DNA of 40,658 nucleotides. It comes from a virus. The stretch spans positions 1 through 40,658 of the IMG/VR virus record IMGVR_UViG_3300046816_000075. The stretch is one strand, 5' to 3'. Below the pieces are notes generated by a model. The model was not told where the DNA came from. It ran no database searches and saw only the letters and a program-made list of their open reading frames with translations. Below, piece by piece: positions 7,907 to 40,658 of the stretch. Position 1 is the first letter of the stretch, and each line of letters starts with the position of its first letter. The position numbers and the translations under genes are program-made.

Positions 7907-8111
7907 TCTTGTCCGTTCCTTTGCCCGCCTTGCGGTTGACCGTGCCGCCCTCGACGGCGAAGGCATCGAGCGTCTGCGCAGCAGACAGCCGCACGCCGCA
8001 GGCGGCACACTCCGCCGTGCCGTCGGCCCGCCTGATCCACGTGTGCTCGCCGTTCGGCGACTTCTCAAGGTTGCTGCACGGCGCTGCCGCCGGGTTGTTG
8101 GCTTCCATCAT
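7893..8111 (-). CDS. Small zinc-ribbon-like protein
   Basis: 72 aa; ATG at 8111 has AAGGTG just upstream, and GTG 8117 or ATG 8108 are possible. HTWIRRADGTAECAACGVRLSAAQ gives one clear CxxC with an upstream His, as in single-knuckle zinc ribbons. An earlier Cys (AAPCSN) may be a ligand. The C terminus is basic (NRKAGKGTDK). Function unknown. Confidence 0.55.
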   Translation of the reverse strand: MMEANNPAAAPCSNLEKSPNGEHTWIRRADGTAECAACGVRLSAAQTLDAFAVEGGTVNRKAGKGTDKSAGA

Positions 8112-11621: not shown

Positions 11622-11879
11622 TTAAGGGCCATCAAGGGCTTTCACCCCGAAAACAAGGTCAACAGCATTTGCGCCCGCAGCGGTGTCGCCACGGCTATAT
11701 CGAGCAAATACTGTTCCGTTGCGCCACGATGAAATTGTCCCGGCCTCAGCGCGTCCGTGGTCCCGATAGATCACTGTTCGCCCGACATGCTCGGGGCCAA
11801 GTTTATCGTAGTCGAGCGGCTCAGCTTCCCAAGACCCAACCCAACTGCGCCGACGATCATCGACATTGTGAACAATCAT
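11622..11879 (-). CDS. Conserved hypothetical protein, small beta-barrel-like
   Basis: 85 aa. HVGRTVIYRDHGRAEAGTISSWRNGTVFARYSRGDTAAGANAVDLVFG reads as a compact five-strand SH3-like barrel (turns at GRAEAG, RNGT, RGD). Proteins with this GRTVIYRDHGRAEAGT pattern occur in rhizobial phages without a known role. ATGA overlap with the upstream gene and TAAATG with the downstream one. Confidence 0.65.
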   Translation of the reverse strand: MIVHNVDDRRRSWVGSWEAEPLDYDKLGPEHVGRTVIYRDHGRAEAGTISSWRNGTVFARYSRGDTAAGANAVDLVFGVKALDGP

Positions 11880-12121
11880 GTAGTCGTCCCTTGTGCGGCG
11901 GTATACGTGTCAGTCGCTTTTTCAGGGTAACGCGCTCGATATAGCGTGATGACGCGAGCGGCCCAATCAAGCAATTTGGCCGTTGCTTCATTGGTCTGCG
12001 TTGGACCGTCAGCATTCGCGATAGCGTCCATCTTGCGGATCAGCGCGGCGTGGTCAGTAAGCGCCTTCACCAAATCCCGAGGCGCATTGTCGTCTAATCG
12101 CTTGAGATAATCTTCCGTCAA
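11876..12121 (-). CDS. Hypothetical 81-aa helical protein, first gene of the late run
   Basis: TTG at 12121 is chosen because GGAGG sits five bases upstream; TTG 12151 (91 aa) is possible but has no clear SD. It reads MTEDYLKRLDDNAPRDLVKAL, then DHAALIRKMDAIANADG and a helix ending YRARYPEKATDTYTAAQGTTT. Mostly helical and acidic. It opens the minus-strand run that continues into packaging and head genes. No function assigned. Confidence 0.55.
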   Translation of the reverse strand: MTEDYLKRLDDNAPRDLVKALTDHAALIRKMDAIANADGPTQTNEATAKLLDWAARVITLYRARYPEKATDTYTAAQGTTT

Positions 12122-12372
12122 ATCATCCTCCGTGGCGCGTAGGGCGCACAATCGACGATCACTGCAAAGTCGGCGAGCCTGTCGTAAACCAATCTTGAAT
12201 TACCCTGTCTGCTCGTTCCCTACGCGGCGGTCAGGGCCACCCCGGCAGCATCCCCGGATGGGGATAGACGCAGTAGGTTGCCCGGGTAGGTTTCCAGCCG
12301 CGCCTCGGTACCTGCCGAGGTGGTTCCGGCGAGCATAGCATTTTAGCCGCTGGCGTACAGAGAAAAGAAAGC

Positions 12373-15783: not shown

Positions 15784-16143
15784 ATGACGGTCGACTTCGG
15801 GAGCCTCTACGAGACGGCCCACGCGGCTGGGATGGCGGCGGGATACGGCAGCAAGCCGACCCCGATGGTGGTGACCGGCGGAGTGCCGGGGCAGGCGGCG
15901 GAAAGCTGGTACGTGTCGGAAGGCTGCTGCGGGTTCGCTTGGGTCGAGTTCAAGGGCACCACGCCTTGGGCCAGATGGGCTAAGAAGGCGGGCAAGGCGC
16001 GGAAAGCCTACCCGACAGGCTGCTCGATCTGGGTCAGCGAGTTCGGACAGTCGGTTGACCGGAAGGAGGCCTACGCCAAGGCCTTCGCCGGGGTGCTCAA
16101 GGCCCACGGGATCGAGGCCTACGCCAACAGCAGACTGGACTAG
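15784..16143 (+). CDS. Conserved phage protein (CGFAWV ... QSxxRKEA ... SRLD)
   Basis: 119 aa from ATG 15784 (AAAGGCGG upstream); ATG 15757 would add nine residues. The core YVSEGCCGFAWVEFKGTTPWARWAKKAGKARKAYPTGCSIWV and the end GQSVDRKEAYAKAFAGVLKAHGIEAYANSRLD match a short protein family widespread in phages of many hosts, with no established function that I know of. First gene right of the early divergent promoters, ended by two hairpins at 16150-16221. Confidence 0.75.
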   Translation: MTVDFGSLYETAHAAGMAAGYGSKPTPMVVTGGVPGQAAESWYVSEGCCGFAWVEFKGTTPWARWAKKAGKARKAYPTGCSIWVSEFGQSVDRKEAYAKAFAGVLKAHGIEAYANSRLD

Positions 16144-16149
16144 CGAATA

Positions 16150-16171
16150 GGGCGGCGCTTCAAAGCCGCCC
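16150..16171 (+). terminator. Hairpin GGGCGGC/GCCGCCC
   Basis: 7-bp perfect stem with an 8-nt loop, seven bases after the stop of the 119-aa gene. No T-run follows; with the next hairpin it probably ends transcription. Confidence 0.5.
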
Positions 16172-16197
16172 TCCCACTGGAGCGGGGCACGCCCAGC

Positions 16198-16232
16198 AGC
16201 CGGGGTCGCGAGGCCCCGGCTGGCGTTTGTCT
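16198..16232 (+). terminator. Terminator candidate before the cargo gene
   Basis: AGCCGGGG (16198-16205) pairs with CCCCGGCT (16214-16221), then a modest T-rich stretch (GTTTGTCT). It would insulate the PEP-CTERM-like gene from early transcription. Confidence 0.5.
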
Positions 16233-16306
16233 AACAACTGGCCATTGACCCCAGTACCTCCACGGGCGCATACTCTGTCGGCTAACTCTCTTTGCAAGGA
16301 GTAAAT

Positions 16307-16996
16307 ATGAGAAAAGCACAAGGAATACTGGCAGGGCTCGCCCTGCTGGCAATGGCTGGGGTGGCGCAAACACCAGCGAAGGCCGCTACGTTCACGCAAA
16401 GCGATTTTGCGGGAACTGGCACTTTCGGTACAGCGTCGGCATCCTGCTTGGATGCCTCCTGCGATCAGGTTGGCGTCAACGTCAGCATGACCCCCAACAT
16501 TCTGCTCCAGACAGGCTCGCACTTCCTGTTCAACTTGAGCTTGGCTGGATCGGGGTTCATCGACGCTTCGTCAATCGACCTCGCACAAGGCACCAACATT
16601 CAGGTGCTGACACACACCAGCCCCGCCACTTACTCAAACGGGCCGTTCAAGTTCTTCTCGGACGGTATTTCTGCTAACTGCGGCAACGGTGGGTCGTCTG
16701 GCGGCTGCGGGAGCACACTGTCGTTTACAATCGACAACTTCAGTGGCTTCCTTTTCGCCACCACTCAGTTCAACAACATGAACATCATTGCAGCGGCAGA
16801 CGTTCTGCTCACCGACTGCACAGGTGGTTGCACTGGTCCCGTTGGGTTGACGGGCGACTTGGTGCCGACACCGTTCGCGGTGCCGACGCCTATCGCCGGT
16901 TCTGGTCCGTTGTTTGTCAGCGGCCTCGCCGGACTGTGGGCGCTGATGCGGCGGCGGAAGAAAAGGCTGGGCTTGCACCTGCCAGCGGCGGCATAG
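16307..16996 (+). CDS. Secreted protein with PEP-CTERM-like C-terminal sorting tail (cargo gene)
   Basis: 229 aa, starting MRKAQGILAGLALLAMAGVA, with AAGGAG before the ATG. The signal peptide probably ends at AKA, residue 26. The middle is Ser/Gly/Thr/Asn-rich beta sequence with four spaced Cys pairs (SCLDASC, CGNGGSSGGC, CTGGC). The end has VPTPIAGSG, a hydrophobic helix (PLFVSGLAGLWALM) and RRRKKR, the tripartite layout of exosortase substrates. VP-x-PI-x-G-x-G variants are common in Bradyrhizobium-like hosts. Bounded by hairpins on both sides and more AT-rich than its neighbours. Probably a host-derived gene exposed on the infected cell surface. Confidence 0.75.
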   Translation: MRKAQGILAGLALLAMAGVAQTPAKAATFTQSDFAGTGTFGTASASCLDASCDQVGVNVSMTPNILLQTGSHFLFNLSLAGSGFIDASSIDLAQGTNIQVLTHTSPATYSNGPFKFFSDGISANCGNGGSSGGCGSTLSFTIDNFSGFLFATTQFNNMNIIAAADVLLTDCTGGCTGPVGLTGDLVPTPFAVPTPIAGSGPLFVSGLAGLWALMRRRKKRLGLHLPAAA

Positions 16997-17011
16997 CGGG
17001 GCAACCCGCTA
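16994..17011 (+). terminator. Hairpin with GCAA tetraloop after the cargo gene
   Basis: TAGCGGG (16994-17000) and CCCGCTA (17005-17011) around GCAA. It begins at the stop codon. No T-run, so it may stabilise the mRNA end rather than terminate. Confidence 0.45.
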
Positions 17012-17076
17012 TCGGCCCTGCATCGGGGGCACTCCCTGAAACCCCATCGTAGTGCGCCACAACCCCGGTGCAGGGC

Positions 17077-17304
17077 ATGAAAGGCTACCCCGGCGTCTCT
17101 CGGTTCGTGGTCCCCCACAGGCTGGTGCGCCGGGGCCAGTACCAAGGCTGGTCGATCAAGTACGTGTATTACAAGGCGCGGCTCATGCGACGGGGCCGCG
17201 TCTTTTTTCTGGGGCACTTCGATACCCCGGAGGCCGCCGCAGAGGCCTACCGCAAGGCCAAAGAAAAACCCCCGGCAGGAGCATCCCGCCGGGGGTCACG
17301 CTAG
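17077..17304 (+). CDS. Stand-alone AP2-type DNA-binding protein
   Basis: 75 aa from ATG 17077; GTG 17068 is possible. GVSRFVVPHRLVRRGQYQGW...VYYKARLMRRGRVFFLGHFDTPEAAAEAYRKAKEK is an AP2/ERF-like fold: three strands then the EAAxAYxxA helix. In phages it usually accompanies an HNH nuclease, but none is fused here. The last codons run through the terminator hairpin of the converging DUF932-like gene. Possibly a remnant of a homing endonuclease or a regulator. Confidence 0.65.
   Translation: MKGYPGVSRFVVPHRLVRRGQYQGWSIKYVYYKARLMRRGRVFFLGHFDTPEAAAEAYRKAKEKPPAGASRRGSR
17261..17295 (-). terminator. Rho-independent terminator of the DUF932-like gene
   Basis: On the minus strand CCCCCGGC (17295-17288) pairs with GCCGGGGG (17276-17269) and is followed by TTTTTCTT. 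It lies inside the 3' end of the AP2 gene. Confidence 0.8.
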
Positions 17305-17319
17305 GCAGCCTGGGGGACG

Positions 17320-18414
17320 TTAGGCCGCCGTCGCGATCCGTTCCCACTGGTTCGCCGGGAGTTCGATCACCTGCGCGCCGATCCGCTCAAGGTCGGTCGC
17401 CCGGTCGTAGTCCTCGACCGTCTGCGAGGCCGCCGTGATCGCGTTGTAGAGGCCGAACCGCGAGAGGTCGCCGCCGCTCGCCAGTTGCTTGAGCACCGAC
17501 TTGCCCTCTGCCTCGTTGAGGCCGAAGTGCTTGCCAGCCATTTCGACCACCTTCACCAGATCATCGCTTTCGATCCGGTCGGCCTGCGTGCCCTCGACCT
17601 TCGCCGCGAGTGCCTCGAACTGCACCCGGTCGAAAGCGGCGCGGGTCACGTCGACCAGTTGCGCCATCGAGGCCACCTGCGTCTTGCGCTTGGTGTCGTC
17701 GGTCAGCATCGTGTAGTGCGCCTCGCTGACCAGTTCGTGCCGGGCACCGACATGGTACTTCCGCACGCTGCGCTCGCTGAAGGTGGCGAGGTTCGAGCAG
17801 AAGCCGTCGTAGAGGCCGGTCAGCACGTTGGCCCCGCCGTAGCCGACTTCGCTGTCGCTGATGGTGATCGCTGGCGAGAGGCAGCGCACGATGTTGTGCT
17901 TGCCGTCACCGAACTTGCCGCCGATGGCCGCCAGTTCGCGCGTTACCTTTTTGTCAACGCACTTGATGTACATCCGCGTGTCGGTCACTTGGCAGGACAT
18001 GACCTCGACGTCGATGTCGAGCAGCACCGGCAGCAGCGAGGCCGCCATGTCCTCGTACTCCATGTCGGTGCGAAACTTGTCCGACCGGAGCGCGCGCAGC
18101 TTGCCGTCCTGCGTGCGGAACAGTTGCTTGGTGGCGTTCTTGGTGAACCACGTGTTGACGTTGTCGGCGAGTAGGCGGGGTTCCTCCGCCAGCATCTTGT
18201 CGTAGTAGGGCTTCGGGATGCGGGTGACCTCCGCCAGTTGCGCGTGCCCGATCTTGTTGACCCCGAACTTCATGTCGCCGACGTGGAGGTTGATGTCCTC
18301 CCCGGTGGCGACCACCTCCGCGTTCTTCGTGTTGGCGATGAAGTCCTTCTTCGTCTCGGCACGCCGCGCGATTTCTGCGGCGAACTCTTGGATCGAATGG
18401 ATACCTGCTTTCAT
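17320..18414 (-). CDS. DUF932-like phage/plasmid protein
   Basis: 364 aa from ATG 18414 (AGGAGC upstream); GTG 18465 is a weaker choice. The layout FGVNKIGHAQLAEVTRIPKPYYDKML, KQLFRTQDGKLRALRSDKFRTDMEYEDM, MYIKCVDKKV, CLSPAITISDSEVGYGG and SERSVRKYHVGARHE matches the DUF932 family, common on plasmids and phages near recombination genes but of unknown biochemistry. It is transcribed alone from a TATAAT promoter under an early operator, opposite to the ERF/YqaJ operon, and ends at a clear terminator. Confidence 0.8.
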   Translation of the reverse strand: MKAGIHSIQEFAAEIARRAETKKDFIANTKNAEVVATGEDINLHVGDMKFGVNKIGHAQLAEVTRIPKPYYDKMLAEEPRLLADNVNTWFTKNATKQLFRTQDGKLRALRSDKFRTDMEYEDMAASLLPVLLDIDVEVMSCQVTDTRMYIKCVDKKVTRELAAIGGKFGDGKHNIVRCLSPAITISDSEVGYGGANVLTGLYDGFCSNLATFSERSVRKYHVGARHELVSEAHYTMLTDDTKRKTQVASMAQLVDVTRAAFDRVQFEALAAKVEGTQADRIESDDLVKVVEMAGKHFGLNEAEGKSVLKQLASGGDLSRFGLYNAITAASQTVEDYDRATDLERIGAQVIELPANQWERIATAA

Positions 18415-24021: not shown

Positions 24022-24981
24022 TTACTTCTCTGCCACCTTCCGCTCGTCCGCACCACCGAGAACGGCGGCGATGGCCGTGCAGATGCGGTCGAACTGGCGG
24101 CTGTAGACGTCAGCGTCCGCCGCGCTGTCGACAAAGCAGACCTCGATGAGGATCGCGGGGCCTGTCGTCTGGTTGAGGAAGTACAGGTCGGTGCGCTTCT
24201 TGGCCCCCCGGTTGATGAAGCCGCAGGCGGCGATGGCCCCCGCCATACGCGCGGCGAGCGACGATTGCGTGACGTAGAGCACCTCGCAGCCCATGGGGCT
24301 GGTCGTCTCCACGTAGGCATTGAAATGCACCGATACGTCGAGATCGCGCTGCTCCGAGTTGTGCGCGTCGACGATGGTGGCGAGGTTCTCCGACTGCGAG
24401 GTGCTGGTATCGTCGTTGAAGGTGGTCACCTCGACGCCACGTTCCTGCAGTTCCTCCGCCACCTTTTCGACCACGGCGCGGGCGCAGTCGACCTCGTCGA
24501 GCACTCCAGAGGCACCCCTGACGTATTTGCCGTGGCCCGAGGAAATCACCACCCGGTCATAGACCTGCGCTTCCGGCCCGCGATGCGTGAACGGGAAGAT
24601 CACCTCGACAGTCTCGTCGGTCATCAGGCCCAGTGCTTCGAGCACAAAGGGCGACACATCCGCTATGCGGTTCGTGTTCTCGTGCGGTCCCCAGTCTGCC
24701 GGGTATGCCTTCATCGACTTGCCGGTCTTGGGATTGCGCACCAGCGCCATTTCCTCCAGCAGCATGTAGGGCGGCGTCTCGTCGTAGTCCCAGCGGCAGG
24801 CGATGTAGGGCACCTCCGGGTTGAGCCGTCGCGCCAGCCCGCTGGTCCCTTCCGGCTGGTAGGACAGGAACAGATGCGGGGCTGTCTCGACGTCGTAGAT
24901 GAAGGCCAGCCCCTCGTCGGCGTCGACGCCATCGTCGTCTGGTCCGCCGAACCAACTGACTTTACCCGTGAGGTTTAGCAT
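24022..24981 (-). CDS. Endolysin: N-acetylmuramoyl-L-alanine amidase (Amidase_3) with N-terminal barrel domain
   Basis: 319 aa from ATG 24981, overlapping the 100-aa gene by seven bases. Residues 1-130 (GKVSWFGGPDDDGVDADEGLAFIY, EGTSGLARRLNPEVPYIACRWDYDETP, PADWGPHENTNRIADVSP) form a double-psi-barrel-like module found in phage lysins. Residues about 143-310 are Amidase_3: H150 (SSGHG), E163 (LDEVDCAR), H219 (VSVHFNAY) and E280 (ILIEVCFVDS) are the zinc and catalytic residues. It cuts the amide between MurNAc and L-Ala. No signal peptide, so it needs a holin. Confidence 0.9.
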   Translation of the reverse strand: MLNLTGKVSWFGGPDDDGVDADEGLAFIYDVETAPHLFLSYQPEGTSGLARRLNPEVPYIACRWDYDETPPYMLLEEMALVRNPKTGKSMKAYPADWGPHENTNRIADVSPFVLEALGLMTDETVEVIFPFTHRGPEAQVYDRVVISSGHGKYVRGASGVLDEVDCARAVVEKVAEELQERGVEVTTFNDDTSTSQSENLATIVDAHNSEQRDLDVSVHFNAYVETTSPMGCEVLYVTQSSLAARMAGAIAACGFINRGAKKRTDLYFLNQTTGPAILIEVCFVDSAADADVYSRQFDRICTAIAAVLGGADERKVAEK

Positions 24982-25277
24982 GATGACGGGTTCCACTTGA
25001 GCGCATCGGCCCGCGCCCGCTGGTAGGCAACAACTGACGCCTGCAGTCCGGCAGACGCACGCCCCGGCTGGCCGTGCGTGTCCTTGAGCCAGCCGGTGAA
25101 TAGATGCTTGACGTTCTCCTTGAACGCATCGTCAACCGCCGCCAGCACTTGCGCGCGAATGTGAACGCGGTCTTCGTCAGTGACGCAGGTCGGCACTGGC
25201 GGCACGGTGCCCTGCGCGTAGAGGAAGGTGCCGACCAGCAGCACGGCAACGGAAATGCTGGCGACTGCCCTGATCAT
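24975..25277 (-). CDS. Signal-anchored periplasmic protein beside the endolysin
   Basis: 100 aa, starting MIRAVASISVAVLLVGTFLY. A signal or anchor helix (4-21) precedes a soluble domain: TDEDRVHIRAQVLAAVDDAFKENVKHLFTGWLKD, GRASAGLQASVVAYQRARADALKW and a final NPSSC. Cys at 31 and 100 could pair in the periplasm. Place and topology suggest a lysis accessory (spanin-like or endolysin regulator), but there is no spanin coiled coil. No SD is seen; the start follows the TGA of an 8-codon mini-cistron (TGACATG), so initiation is probably coupled. Confidence 0.65.
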   Translation of the reverse strand: MIRAVASISVAVLLVGTFLYAQGTVPPVPTCVTDEDRVHIRAQVLAAVDDAFKENVKHLFTGWLKDTHGQPGRASAGLQASVVAYQRARADALKWNPSSC

Positions 25278-37771: not shown

Positions 37772-40237
37772 CTACCCCGAAACTCGCTGGCCGATTATCA
37801 AGGCTGTGAGCGTAAATGGTAGGGGGTCCGCATGCTCTATGACTATATACCTGTCCCTGTCCCACTCGCCGTCGAACGGCAGTCGCTTGTCCCCGGAGAA
37901 CAGCGGGATCGCCGTCTCCAGCGGCGCGTCGGCGGATCGGTAGGGGATCGGGTCGAGCCCGCCATTGGCCGCCATCAAATCGGTGCCGTAGCTGCCGCCG
38001 ACCGAGTACTGCAGCCGCGCGGTGATTTCAAAGACGCGCCCGATTTGCCCTTGCGCGGTGCCCCCTTGAGCCCCCGCTTCGATGTGCAGGGTCCGGATGC
38101 GCGCCGTGTAGTTGTAGCCGATGAGCACCTTGGACGCCGGGATGTCGAGCGTGACCACCCCGTTGTTCACCGCCTTGCCGTGGTAGGGCACGCCGTCGGC
38201 CAGCATACTGACCAGCATGCCGTTGAGGTGCCACAGCCCGGTGATGGTGGTGACCGGCGGCCCGACGTACAGCAGCGCATCATCGAGGTAGAAGCCGTCC
38301 TCCAGCGCCGCACCGTCTTCCAGACCCGGCTGGCCGACCTCGACATGCCGCACCGTCTGCCCGCCGACCACCCGCTCGACGATCATCCACAGTTCGTCAC
38401 CGCCCAGCCCCGGGATGGAGGCGACCCCGCGCGCCAGTCCGCCGCCGCCAATCTGGTGGTGATGCCAGCCGACCACCTGCTGGTCGCGCTCGTAGGTCAT
38501 CGCCACCATGTCGCCGTCGGCGCGCGCGTACCAGATCATCAGGTCGGGCACCGCCACGTAGGCCCCTTGGATCAGTCCGGGGGCGGTGATGTGCTCCGAC
38601 AGGATGGTGAGGTCGGGGGCGGCGTAGCTGTCGGTCTGGAAGTTGTAGACGAACTCGCGCAGGCGGCGCGCCGGGTTCTCGTTCCTGCCCTTGCGCTGGG
38701 TGAACAGGATGGCGGGACCGGCCCGCACCGGCTTGACCAGCGCCGTGCCGAACGATGTTTCACGTGACACCTTGATATTGGTCGAGGTGATCGCCTCGTT
38801 CGCGTTCGAGGCCGCCACCGTGTACTCGCCCGAGGTGGCGTTGACCACCAGCCGCTTGGTGGTCGACAGGTAGCGGATGGCGTCGACCTGATCGGAACTG
38901 ATGGTGTAGTTGTAGGACAGGTCGGCCTTGTCGCCGTCCTTGTAGTTGAGGTAGGCGTCGATGTCGCTGCCCCACAGCGTCGTCGGCTGCCATTCCGTGT
39001 TGGCTGCCACCAGCCGCTGCTCGTGGAAGGTGGCGGTGGTCGGGTAGCCCCGATAGTCGGACCACGCCCCCTCCTGCCACATCCATGACGACCGGGCGGA
39101 GTAGGCGGTGTAGGGCGTGCGGTACTTGACGATGTTGGCGTAGGCCTGCTGCGTGTTGATGACGTCGGTGACCTGCACCACGCAGTAGCCGGAATGTTCG
39201 TAACTCATTTGCGCGACTTCGCCCGCCGTGCCGTAGAACACGTCGACGATGCCGCGCGTGTGCGTCGGGTAGGATGCGGTCGAGGCCATAACGCCACCGC
39301 CGCCCGACACCACAAAGTACACGTTGCCCTTGTACTCCCAGAAGGTGTTGTTCGCGACGGTGACCGTCGCCCCCGGTGCCCATGTCGCATAGCCGAAGGA
39401 TGAGCCGTTCGACTGCTCCCAGATGCGCCACAGCGAGCCGACATGCGCGTCGTTGAGCATCGGGTAGTTGAACGTCATCACCGCCGAACCGCTCGCCACG
39501 TCGAGCGACACGCGGATGCCGTCGTTGATGTTCATGTCGAGGAAGGGGCCTTCCTCGACGTTGCCGGTGTTGAGCGTCCATGACGCATGCGACAGCCGCT
39601 TGAGCAGCGTGATGGGCCAGTTCGAGGTGAACAGGAACAGCGTGTCCGCCGACTGCGTGAAGGTCATCGTGGCGATGTCCTGCGCGGAGTAGAGGGTCGC
39701 CACCTCGTAGATGCGCGAGGATACGCCGCCGCTTGTGTAGGGCGAGTAGGTGCGGCTGTCGACGTTGATGACCAGCGTCGTCGCCGTGCCGCCGGTCACC
39801 GTGAACTCGCGGTTGTTAAGCTGGTGCGTGCCGCCGATGTTGGTGAAGATGACGCGGTCGGTGGTGGAAAGCCCGTGCGCGGCGGCGCAGGCGATGGTGG
39901 TGGTGACCCCCCGCGTGATGCCGACGATGGCGCTCTGCACGTCGAAGATGATGCCTTGGTTCTTGAAGAAGCGGATATAGCCCGGGCCGAACTCCAGCAT
40001 GTAGGCCTGCGTCGTAGAGAATACGAACGGCACAAGGATCGAGTTCGGATTGCTGTCCTTGACGGTCGACACGTTGAGCGTGCCGCCGCGCTTGCGCGCG
40101 CCGCCCTGCGGCAGCACCACCACGTTGGTGAGTTCGCGCGCGCCGTTCTGGTACTTGGCAAGGTCGACCCGCCCGTAGATGCGCGGGGATATTTCGCCAG
40201 CCGTGAAGTTGGTCAGGATGCTGTTGACGGTGCCCAT
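37772..40237 (-). CDS. Tail tubular protein B-like (T7 gp12 nozzle)
   Basis: 821 aa from ATG 40237 in a TGATG overlap with tubular A (GTG 40240 adds one residue). MGTVNSILTNFTAGEISPRI, YGRVDLAKYQNGARELTNVVVLPQGGARKRGGT is the family hallmark. Later come YMLEFGPGYIRFFKNQG, ERVIFTNIGG-like beta repeats, ARSSWMWQEGAWSDYRGYPTTATFHEQRLVAANTEWQP and DGDMVAMTYERDQQVVGWHHHQIGG. The length is close to T7 gp12 (794 aa). It forms the hexameric nozzle of the short tail. Confidence 0.92.
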   Translation of the reverse strand: MGTVNSILTNFTAGEISPRIYGRVDLAKYQNGARELTNVVVLPQGGARKRGGTLNVSTVKDSNPNSILVPFVFSTTQAYMLEFGPGYIRFFKNQGIIFDVQSAIVGITRGVTTTIACAAAHGLSTTDRVIFTNIGGTHQLNNREFTVTGGTATTLVINVDSRTYSPYTSGGVSSRIYEVATLYSAQDIATMTFTQSADTLFLFTSNWPITLLKRLSHASWTLNTGNVEEGPFLDMNINDGIRVSLDVASGSAVMTFNYPMLNDAHVGSLWRIWEQSNGSSFGYATWAPGATVTVANNTFWEYKGNVYFVVSGGGGVMASTASYPTHTRGIVDVFYGTAGEVAQMSYEHSGYCVVQVTDVINTQQAYANIVKYRTPYTAYSARSSWMWQEGAWSDYRGYPTTATFHEQRLVAANTEWQPTTLWGSDIDAYLNYKDGDKADLSYNYTISSDQVDAIRYLSTTKRLVVNATSGEYTVAASNANEAITSTNIKVSRETSFGTALVKPVRAGPAILFTQRKGRNENPARRLREFVYNFQTDSYAAPDLTILSEHITAPGLIQGAYVAVPDLMIWYARADGDMVAMTYERDQQVVGWHHHQIGGGGLARGVASIPGLGGDELWMIVERVVGGQTVRHVEVGQPGLEDGAALEDGFYLDDALLYVGPPVTTITGLWHLNGMLVSMLADGVPYHGKAVNNGVVTLDIPASKVLIGYNYTARIRTLHIEAGAQGGTAQGQIGRVFEITARLQYSVGGSYGTDLMAANGGLDPIPYRSADAPLETAIPLFSGDKRLPFDGEWDRDRYIVIEHADPLPFTLTALIIGQRVSG

Positions 40238-40658
40238 CACACGTCAGACAGACGTGCCTGCTCCCATGTGGACAGCGGCATGATGTCGGGCGAGCCGTCC
40301 ATGGCGTCGGCGAACTTGGCGTCGGCGGATATTTCCGCGAAGGCCTGCTGATACATCTTCACGTCGTTGGCGCTGTCGGTGAACGGCTTGCACCAGCGCC
40401 ACGCCAGCCGCGCGGCAATGGTCGCCACCAGCCCGGGGTCGAACTCGTCGGTTGGCTTGCGCGCGATGTAGGTGAAGCGGAAGCCCTCGATGTTGCAGTG
40501 AATATACTGGCCGTGCCGGGCGAACGGCTCGATGTTGTTCGACACGTCGCCGTCATTGGTGCCCTCGACGTACACCGTGCGCACGAAATCCGCAGGCAGC
40601 CGGAAGGCCAGCGCGTAGCCGAACAGCGGCTTGGCGGTCGGGTCGGAGGCCAGTTGCG
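40237..40658 (-). CDS. Tail tubular protein A-like, C-terminal part, cut by window edge
   Basis: Open from the right edge to TGA at 40237; in the circle it begins at base 336. Visible residues include FVRTVYVEGTNDGDVSNNI, YIHCNIEGFRFTYIARKPTDEFDPGLVATIAARLAWRWCKPFTDSANDVKMYQQAF and the end WEQARLSDV. YIARKPTDEFDPGLVATIAARLA matches the YTxxVxDxxxFDPxFxxALAxRLA pattern common to podophage tubular A proteins. Its stop overlaps the start of tubular B. Confidence 0.87.
   Translation of the reverse strand, partial: QLASDPTAKPLFGYALAFRLPADFVRTVYVEGTNDGDVSNNIEPFARHGQYIHCNIEGFRFTYIARKPTDEFDPGLVATIAARLAWRWCKPFTDSANDVKMYQQAFAEISADAKFADAMDGSPDIMPLSTWEQARLSDV
40510..40658. repeat. Terminal direct repeat, right copy
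   Basis: Equals bases 1-149 except G at 40636 (A at 127). Supports closing the sequence into a circle of 40,509 bp. Confidence 0.9.

Follow-up and report, generated by a model that had tools for sequence, protein, structure and literature searches.

A predicted exported protein with a PEP-CTERM-like tail as acquired cargo in an uncultured phage

The window analysed here, the whole 40,658-nucleotide stretch of IMG/VR record IMGVR_UViG_3300046816_000075, belongs to a soil phage and carries a recently acquired gene for a predicted exported protein with a sorting-type C-terminal tail, preceded by a terminator-like stem-loop and followed by a small ORF (Table 1). The window is probably a complete phage genome because a 149-bp repeat, with one mismatch, is present at its two ends. 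Its other genes encode a portal of family PF12236, tail proteins, fibres, an Erf-type annealing protein, NinB-like and HNH proteins and an Amidase_3 endolysin. Among the named phages listed as matches, none exceeds 38% identity in the portal. Two phage integrases, used as queries in what is a weak test, found no match in the window, and neither tRNAs nor a near phage with a known host were found that would point to the host. One tail protein (PHROG 376; 37772-40240, minus strand) matches Pfam E1_FCCH at 36.3 bits, above the cut-off; such a domain is unusual in a phage tail protein.

Table 1. Features at the cargo locus, in window coordinates
Feature	Position	Strand	Basis
Terminator-like stem-loop ending the upstream gene; left edge of the shared block	16197-16222	+	11 pairs, 9 GC; five T in the 8-base window past the stem
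Horizontally shared block (moron): promoter region, exported-protein gene and small AP2-like ORF	16221-17276	+	blastn to G002/G003
Predicted sigma-70-like promoter, TTGACC - 18 nt - CATACT	16245-16274	+	Consensus match only, 9/12
Shine-Dalgarno AAGGAG	16296-16301	+	Sequence; 5 bases 5' of the ATG
Exported-protein gene with sorting tail	16307-16996	+	229 aa, ATG start
Signal peptide MRKAQGILAGLALLAMAGVAQTPAKA	16307-16384	+	Sequence; predicted cleavage between AKA and ATF
Mature Cys-rich body	16385-16861	+	Six Cys; 1 K/R/E per 159 residues
Class-1 sorting tail AVPTPIAGSGPLFVSGLAGLWALMRRRKKR	16877-16966	+	Sequence; aligns with other class-1 tails; sub-threshold VPLPA-CTERM score
Small ORF with AP2 / HNH-associated DNA-binding motif	17068-17304	+	Pfam AP2 E 0.002 (below cut-off); PHROG HNH E 1e-6

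The sole longer start available to the reading frame is a TTG at 16292. A signal peptide, as expected of a PEP-CTERM protein, is recognizable from the sequence itself and from the mature N-terminus, since the residues ATF are kept among homologues; the signal peptides differ. The body is poor in basic residues and rich in serine, threonine and asparagine, and its single K/R/E residue compares with 24 expected from the remaining phage proteome (P ~1e-10). Purifying selection acts on the body among relatives (dN/dS 0.02-0.23). Its six cysteines may form disulfides, and a low-confidence structure model suggests strands (pLDDT 34 and 46 in two predictions). The protein ends in a tail, VPTPIAGSGPLFVSGLAGLWALMRRRKKR, that combines the proline motif VPTPIAG, which has no glutamate, with a hydrophobic stretch and the basic cluster RRRKKR; nine further residues follow the cluster. 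The earlier note's description of an exported protein with a PEP-CTERM-like tail is thus borne out. When three GC-matched control phages were scanned for a signal peptide plus tail, no ORF of at least 120 aa came up, and 30 Markov-1 randomized copies of the window yielded none of 150 aa or longer. A sequence search of the PDB found no match, homologues of the protein were absent from INPHARED phages and from plasmids, and no bacterial homologue of the body was found in 299 sampled Pseudomonadota.

A comparison with other viral contigs revealed that the gene belongs to a block of about 1.05 kb that is shared with two of them, G002 and G003, at 89% DNA identity over 16221-16968 and 73% over 17082-17276. 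The flanks of this block within 16101-17400 show no similarity to either contig by blastn, the portals of the window and G002 are about 24% identical as proteins, and in G002 the cargo gene runs opposite to the genes that flank it. Together with the terminator hairpin at the block's edge, these are the marks of a moron, an independent transcription unit that lies between genes and is common to divergent phages. The earlier note's proposal that the gene is acquired cargo therefore holds, since a block so similar in DNA sits in otherwise very divergent phages and its similarity begins at the upstream terminator hairpin. Two of the observations offered in favour of that proposal fared less evenly. 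The gene is indeed richer in AT (59.1% GC against 63.6% for the phage), but mildly so, with 10.6% of 690-nt windows lower still. Hairpins were claimed on both sides, and the upstream one is a good terminator-like structure, whereas the downstream one (TAGCGGGGCAACCCGCTA, 16994-17011) has no T-run; the next terminator-like site on the same strand (17173-17204) lies within the small ORF.

The small ORF travels with the cargo gene, being the part that is 73% identical in G002 and G003, and could be what is left of a homing endonuclease by which the block was mobilized. Upstream of the gene, the window has the sequence GTTTGTCTAACAACTGGCCATTG at 16225-16250, whose counterpart in G002 (L012, about 7921-7937) is a near-perfect inverted repeat, TGTCTACAAATTAGACA; this element is possibly an operator. 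Elsewhere in the window, a second short segment (11892-12115) is 95% identical in DNA to G002 and G003. It falls in an ORF (11876-12151, minus strand) that is 94% identical over 66 aa and has no family match, and it is a further piece that these divergent phages have come to share recently.

We found the same body in eight IMG/VR contigs and homologous or analogous genes in at least 43 contigs besides the window, a count that includes five, mostly fragments, with a tblastn match and no complete gene seen. In relatives, a second exported gene with a similar tail often adjoins the first, giving a two-gene cassette. Clustering of bodies placed the window protein in a first-slot family (n=17) with members down to 22% identity, next to a second-slot family (n=25) that is related to the FxDxF PEP-CTERM family at scores below its cut-off, and several smaller families. 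INPHARED phages contain no homologue of the companion proteins. One viral contig (L114, 6387-6935, minus strand) encodes an exported protein with a VPLPATLPLFAIALGVIGLIGRRK tail and an unrelated body, adjoining another such gene. Carriers G001, G005, G007 and G311 contain phage DNA polymerase, helicase, primase, portal or tail fibre genes, and the carriers look like phages of Gram-negative bacteria.

The position of these genes bears on when they are expressed. In G001 and G005 they come last on the strand that carries the replication genes, with the endolysin on the opposite strand, which argues for expression before lysis. Since carriers encode an amidase endolysin 2-12 kb from these genes, we considered a role in lysis, as a spanin or otherwise. 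We rejected it because several relatives have the genes among those for replication, on the strand opposite the endolysin. The window's endolysin (24022-24996, minus strand) has relatives in nearly all carriers checked. Its N-terminal part alone matches in L063-L069 and G311 and its whole length matches elsewhere, so the catalytic half seems to have been exchanged.

The tails of this family fall into two classes. Class-1 tails (VPTPIAGSGPLF..., VPGPIAGAGFPG... and VPVPAVGAGLPG...) include that of the window protein, and class-2 tails are of the forms ETPLPAAVWLFGSGLG... and ETPIPGAVWLFGGG... Each of body families 0, 1 and 4 has members with class-1 and members with class-2 tails, and the trees of the body families imply at least four changes of tail class. 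Both genes carry the same class in 19 of 19 two-gene contigs, though the independent cases are fewer because several of these contigs are near-identical. Exchange is visible within class 2 as well. Between G006 and G007 the body is 99% shared and the tail 60%, whereas between G005 and G007 the tail reaches 97% and the body 92%. The signal peptides of G005, which has the body of the window protein, and L034, which has a distantly related body, are almost identical in DNA at the 3' end. Recombination thus acts on ends and bodies independently.

We asked how these tails stand against curated PEP-CTERM models. The window protein matches none of TIGR02595, TIGR03370 or PF07589 at the curated cut-offs, its tail peptide reaching 17.3 bits against TIGR03370 where 25.35 are required. 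The earlier note had named two findings that together would speak against its reading, the lack of a PEP-CTERM HMM hit and a true host devoid of exosortase, and the first of these is what we obtained for this protein. Because the protein falls short of the cut-offs tested, we do not file it as a PEP-CTERM member and describe it as PEP-CTERM-like by architecture. The companions, which are genes of relatives and absent from the window, score 28 to 46 bits against the FxDxF model NF038126 (E 5e-12 to 2e-6; cut-off 50 bits) and are, by sequence comparison, related to that family and not members of it. The L018 companion passes TIGR03370 (VPLPA-CTERM; 25.6 against 25.35 bits), and the tail peptide of L007 passes TIGR02595 by itself (18.0 against 16). 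That homologues in the same slot carry true PEP-CTERM-class tails lends support to the PEP-CTERM-like reading of the window protein.

Profiles of the two tail classes were compared between 40 exosortase-positive and 40 exosortase-negative genomes. The class-2 profile found C-terminal PEP-CTERM tails in 11 of 40 positive genomes and 0 of 40 negative ones (Fisher P 0.0004), or 12 against 2 when all reported matches are counted (P 0.006). Class-2 tails are thus in all likelihood genuine PEP-CTERM sorting signals. The class-1 profile showed no such association (4/40 against 4/40, with one good C-terminal tail among the matches). Given this result and the sub-threshold model scores, the sorting claim for the window protein is carried by its homologues, from which we infer that its class-1 tail is processed by an exosortase. 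The enzyme would have to be the host's, since no PF09721 exosortase turned up in this phage or across the 14 phage contigs searched; 81 of 398 Pseudomonadota genomes encode one. A strict DNA pattern for class-1 tails, PxxGAGLPG, matched these 398 genomes at chance level and gave one tail-like fragment, L081. It is a short frame (VPGPIVGAGLPGLLRRSVAS) with a class-1 tail-like motif in genome G487 of a Bradyrhizobium-like family, in which 0 of 110 genomes have a PF09721 exosortase. Another match of the genome scan, L010, was rejected as a FimV-like protein whose resemblance is limited to its membrane segment (WALMRRRKK).

Exosortase substrates are known from bacteria. The phage proteins resemble those of TIGR02595, TIGR03370 and NF038126 in their signal peptide, proline motif, hydrophobic helix and C-terminal Arg/Lys cluster, in a body with few basic residues and much serine, threonine and asparagine, and in that companions from related phages match the models. 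They differ in being phage-encoded, in their Cys-rich body and in a window tail (VPTPIAGSGPLF) that is neither PEP nor VPLPA and scores below the cut-offs. Few basic residues and much S/T/N were described for PEP-CTERM proteins along with low cysteine (Haft et al., 2006; PMC1569441). As small acquired cargo genes with products in the host envelope, the phage genes also parallel surface-exclusion morons such as the Ltp-type lipoproteins of S. thermophilus phages (PMC3952083) and SieA of P22 (PMC10883804). Those rely on lipoprotein or membrane insertion, whereas the window protein has a C-terminal sorting signal and any exclusion by it is conjectural. A further parallel is provided by prophage-coded LPXTG surface proteins of Gram-positive bacteria, such as SasX, which are phage-borne substrates of a host transpeptidase displayed on the cell. 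They involve another enzyme class and another envelope, whereas the present genes have Gram-negative-type carriers and exchangeable tails. We found no report of phage-coded PEP-CTERM proteins in the open-licence literature, as judged by titles and abstracts, which is not proof of novelty.

We consider it somewhat probable that the gene is a phage moron that displays a surface or exopolysaccharide protein on the infected cell through the host's sorting machinery. The body would be exported and the tail would arrest the protein in the membrane, where a host exosortase-type enzyme would cut at the proline motif and the body would pass to the outer surface or exopolysaccharide. This sequence of export, arrest, cutting and release is the one modelled by Haft et al., 2006 (PMC1569441), and the surface location of the body is presumed from it. 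The displayed body could then alter the surface in a way that impairs adsorption of competing phages, with bodies exchanged under an arms race and tails exchanged to suit the host's sorting enzyme. Superinfection exclusion is a natural first guess because it is where small acquired phage genes with envelope products are best known (PMC3952083, PMC10883804), and we hold it tentatively. The coating of the infected cell and the altered receptors that the earlier note also suggested would be equally conjectural. Support for display comes from the architecture of export signal and tail, from the presence of such genes in dozens of phages and their horizontal transfer, from the exchange of tails and bodies with a single tail class per phage, and from the PEP-CTERM nature of class-2 tails and the PEP-CTERM-type composition of the body; we also count in its favour that PADLOC returned no match. 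On the other side stand the absence of a passing PEP-CTERM model and of an exosortase association for class 1, six cysteines where PEP-CTERM proteins have few (PMC1569441), and the lack, in the weak test described, of an integrase match that would point to a lysogen needing protection.

The alternative that survives best, although we think it unlikely, is a plain tail-anchored periplasmic protein whose uncut helix holds the body at the inner membrane, where it might for instance block DNA entry by a second phage, as Sie-type proteins do. The behaviour of class 1 in the models and genome comparison fits an anchor, and the FimV-like protein illustrates how ordinary membrane proteins can mimic such a tail. 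Against this, the same body family bears PEP-CTERM-class tails in other phages, the proline motif and arginine cluster are retained in nearly every tail, and the two genes of a phage always agree in class, which a mere anchor would not need.

The displayed protein might instead aggregate infected cells or promote biofilm, keeping hosts near released virions. Zoogloea requires PEP-CTERM proteins to form flocs, according to Gao (2018) as cited in PMC12642866, and the relatives' tails are weakly similar to the floc protein PepA. The bodies share no similarity with PepA-type proteins at a meaningful score, making this rather improbable. We regard as quite improbable a decoy function, in which abundant phage substrates would occupy the host exosortase, starve the host's surface or exopolysaccharide proteins and open the capsule or matrix. 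It would suit a decoy that a phage has two substrates, which bear host-type tails on unrelated bodies and are placed at the end of a replication-gene operon in several relatives, yet the tail alone would then suffice and the bodies are strongly conserved. PEP-CTERM proteins being otherwise known from bacteria, a host gene could have entered the contig by misassembly or contamination, for which there is hardly any chance given the terminal repeat and the portal, tail, recombination and endolysin genes of the window, the recurrence of the gene in many independent viral contigs with phage genes and the lack of a bacterial homologue of the body in the Pseudomonadota sampled.

Within the display reading, the exchange patterns suggest, as a speculative extension, a modular design in soil phages, with interchangeable bodies set between an export signal that stays constant and a tail matched to the host. 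A phage could then place different proteins on different hosts by way of whichever sorting enzyme each one has, and the class-1 tail (VPxPIxGxGLPG / VPTPIAGSGPLF) may address a sorting enzyme outside the known exosortase family. Phages may more broadly be using the sorting machinery of their hosts to redecorate them, because dozens of uncultured phages carry such genes with exchangeable bodies and tails. If phages do use this pathway, it would provide a route for rewriting the surface of Gram-negative soil bacteria. Natural tail swaps, in which similar bodies bear different tails, would then help to pair tails with their sorting enzymes, a pairing that is hard to settle using bacterial genomes alone.
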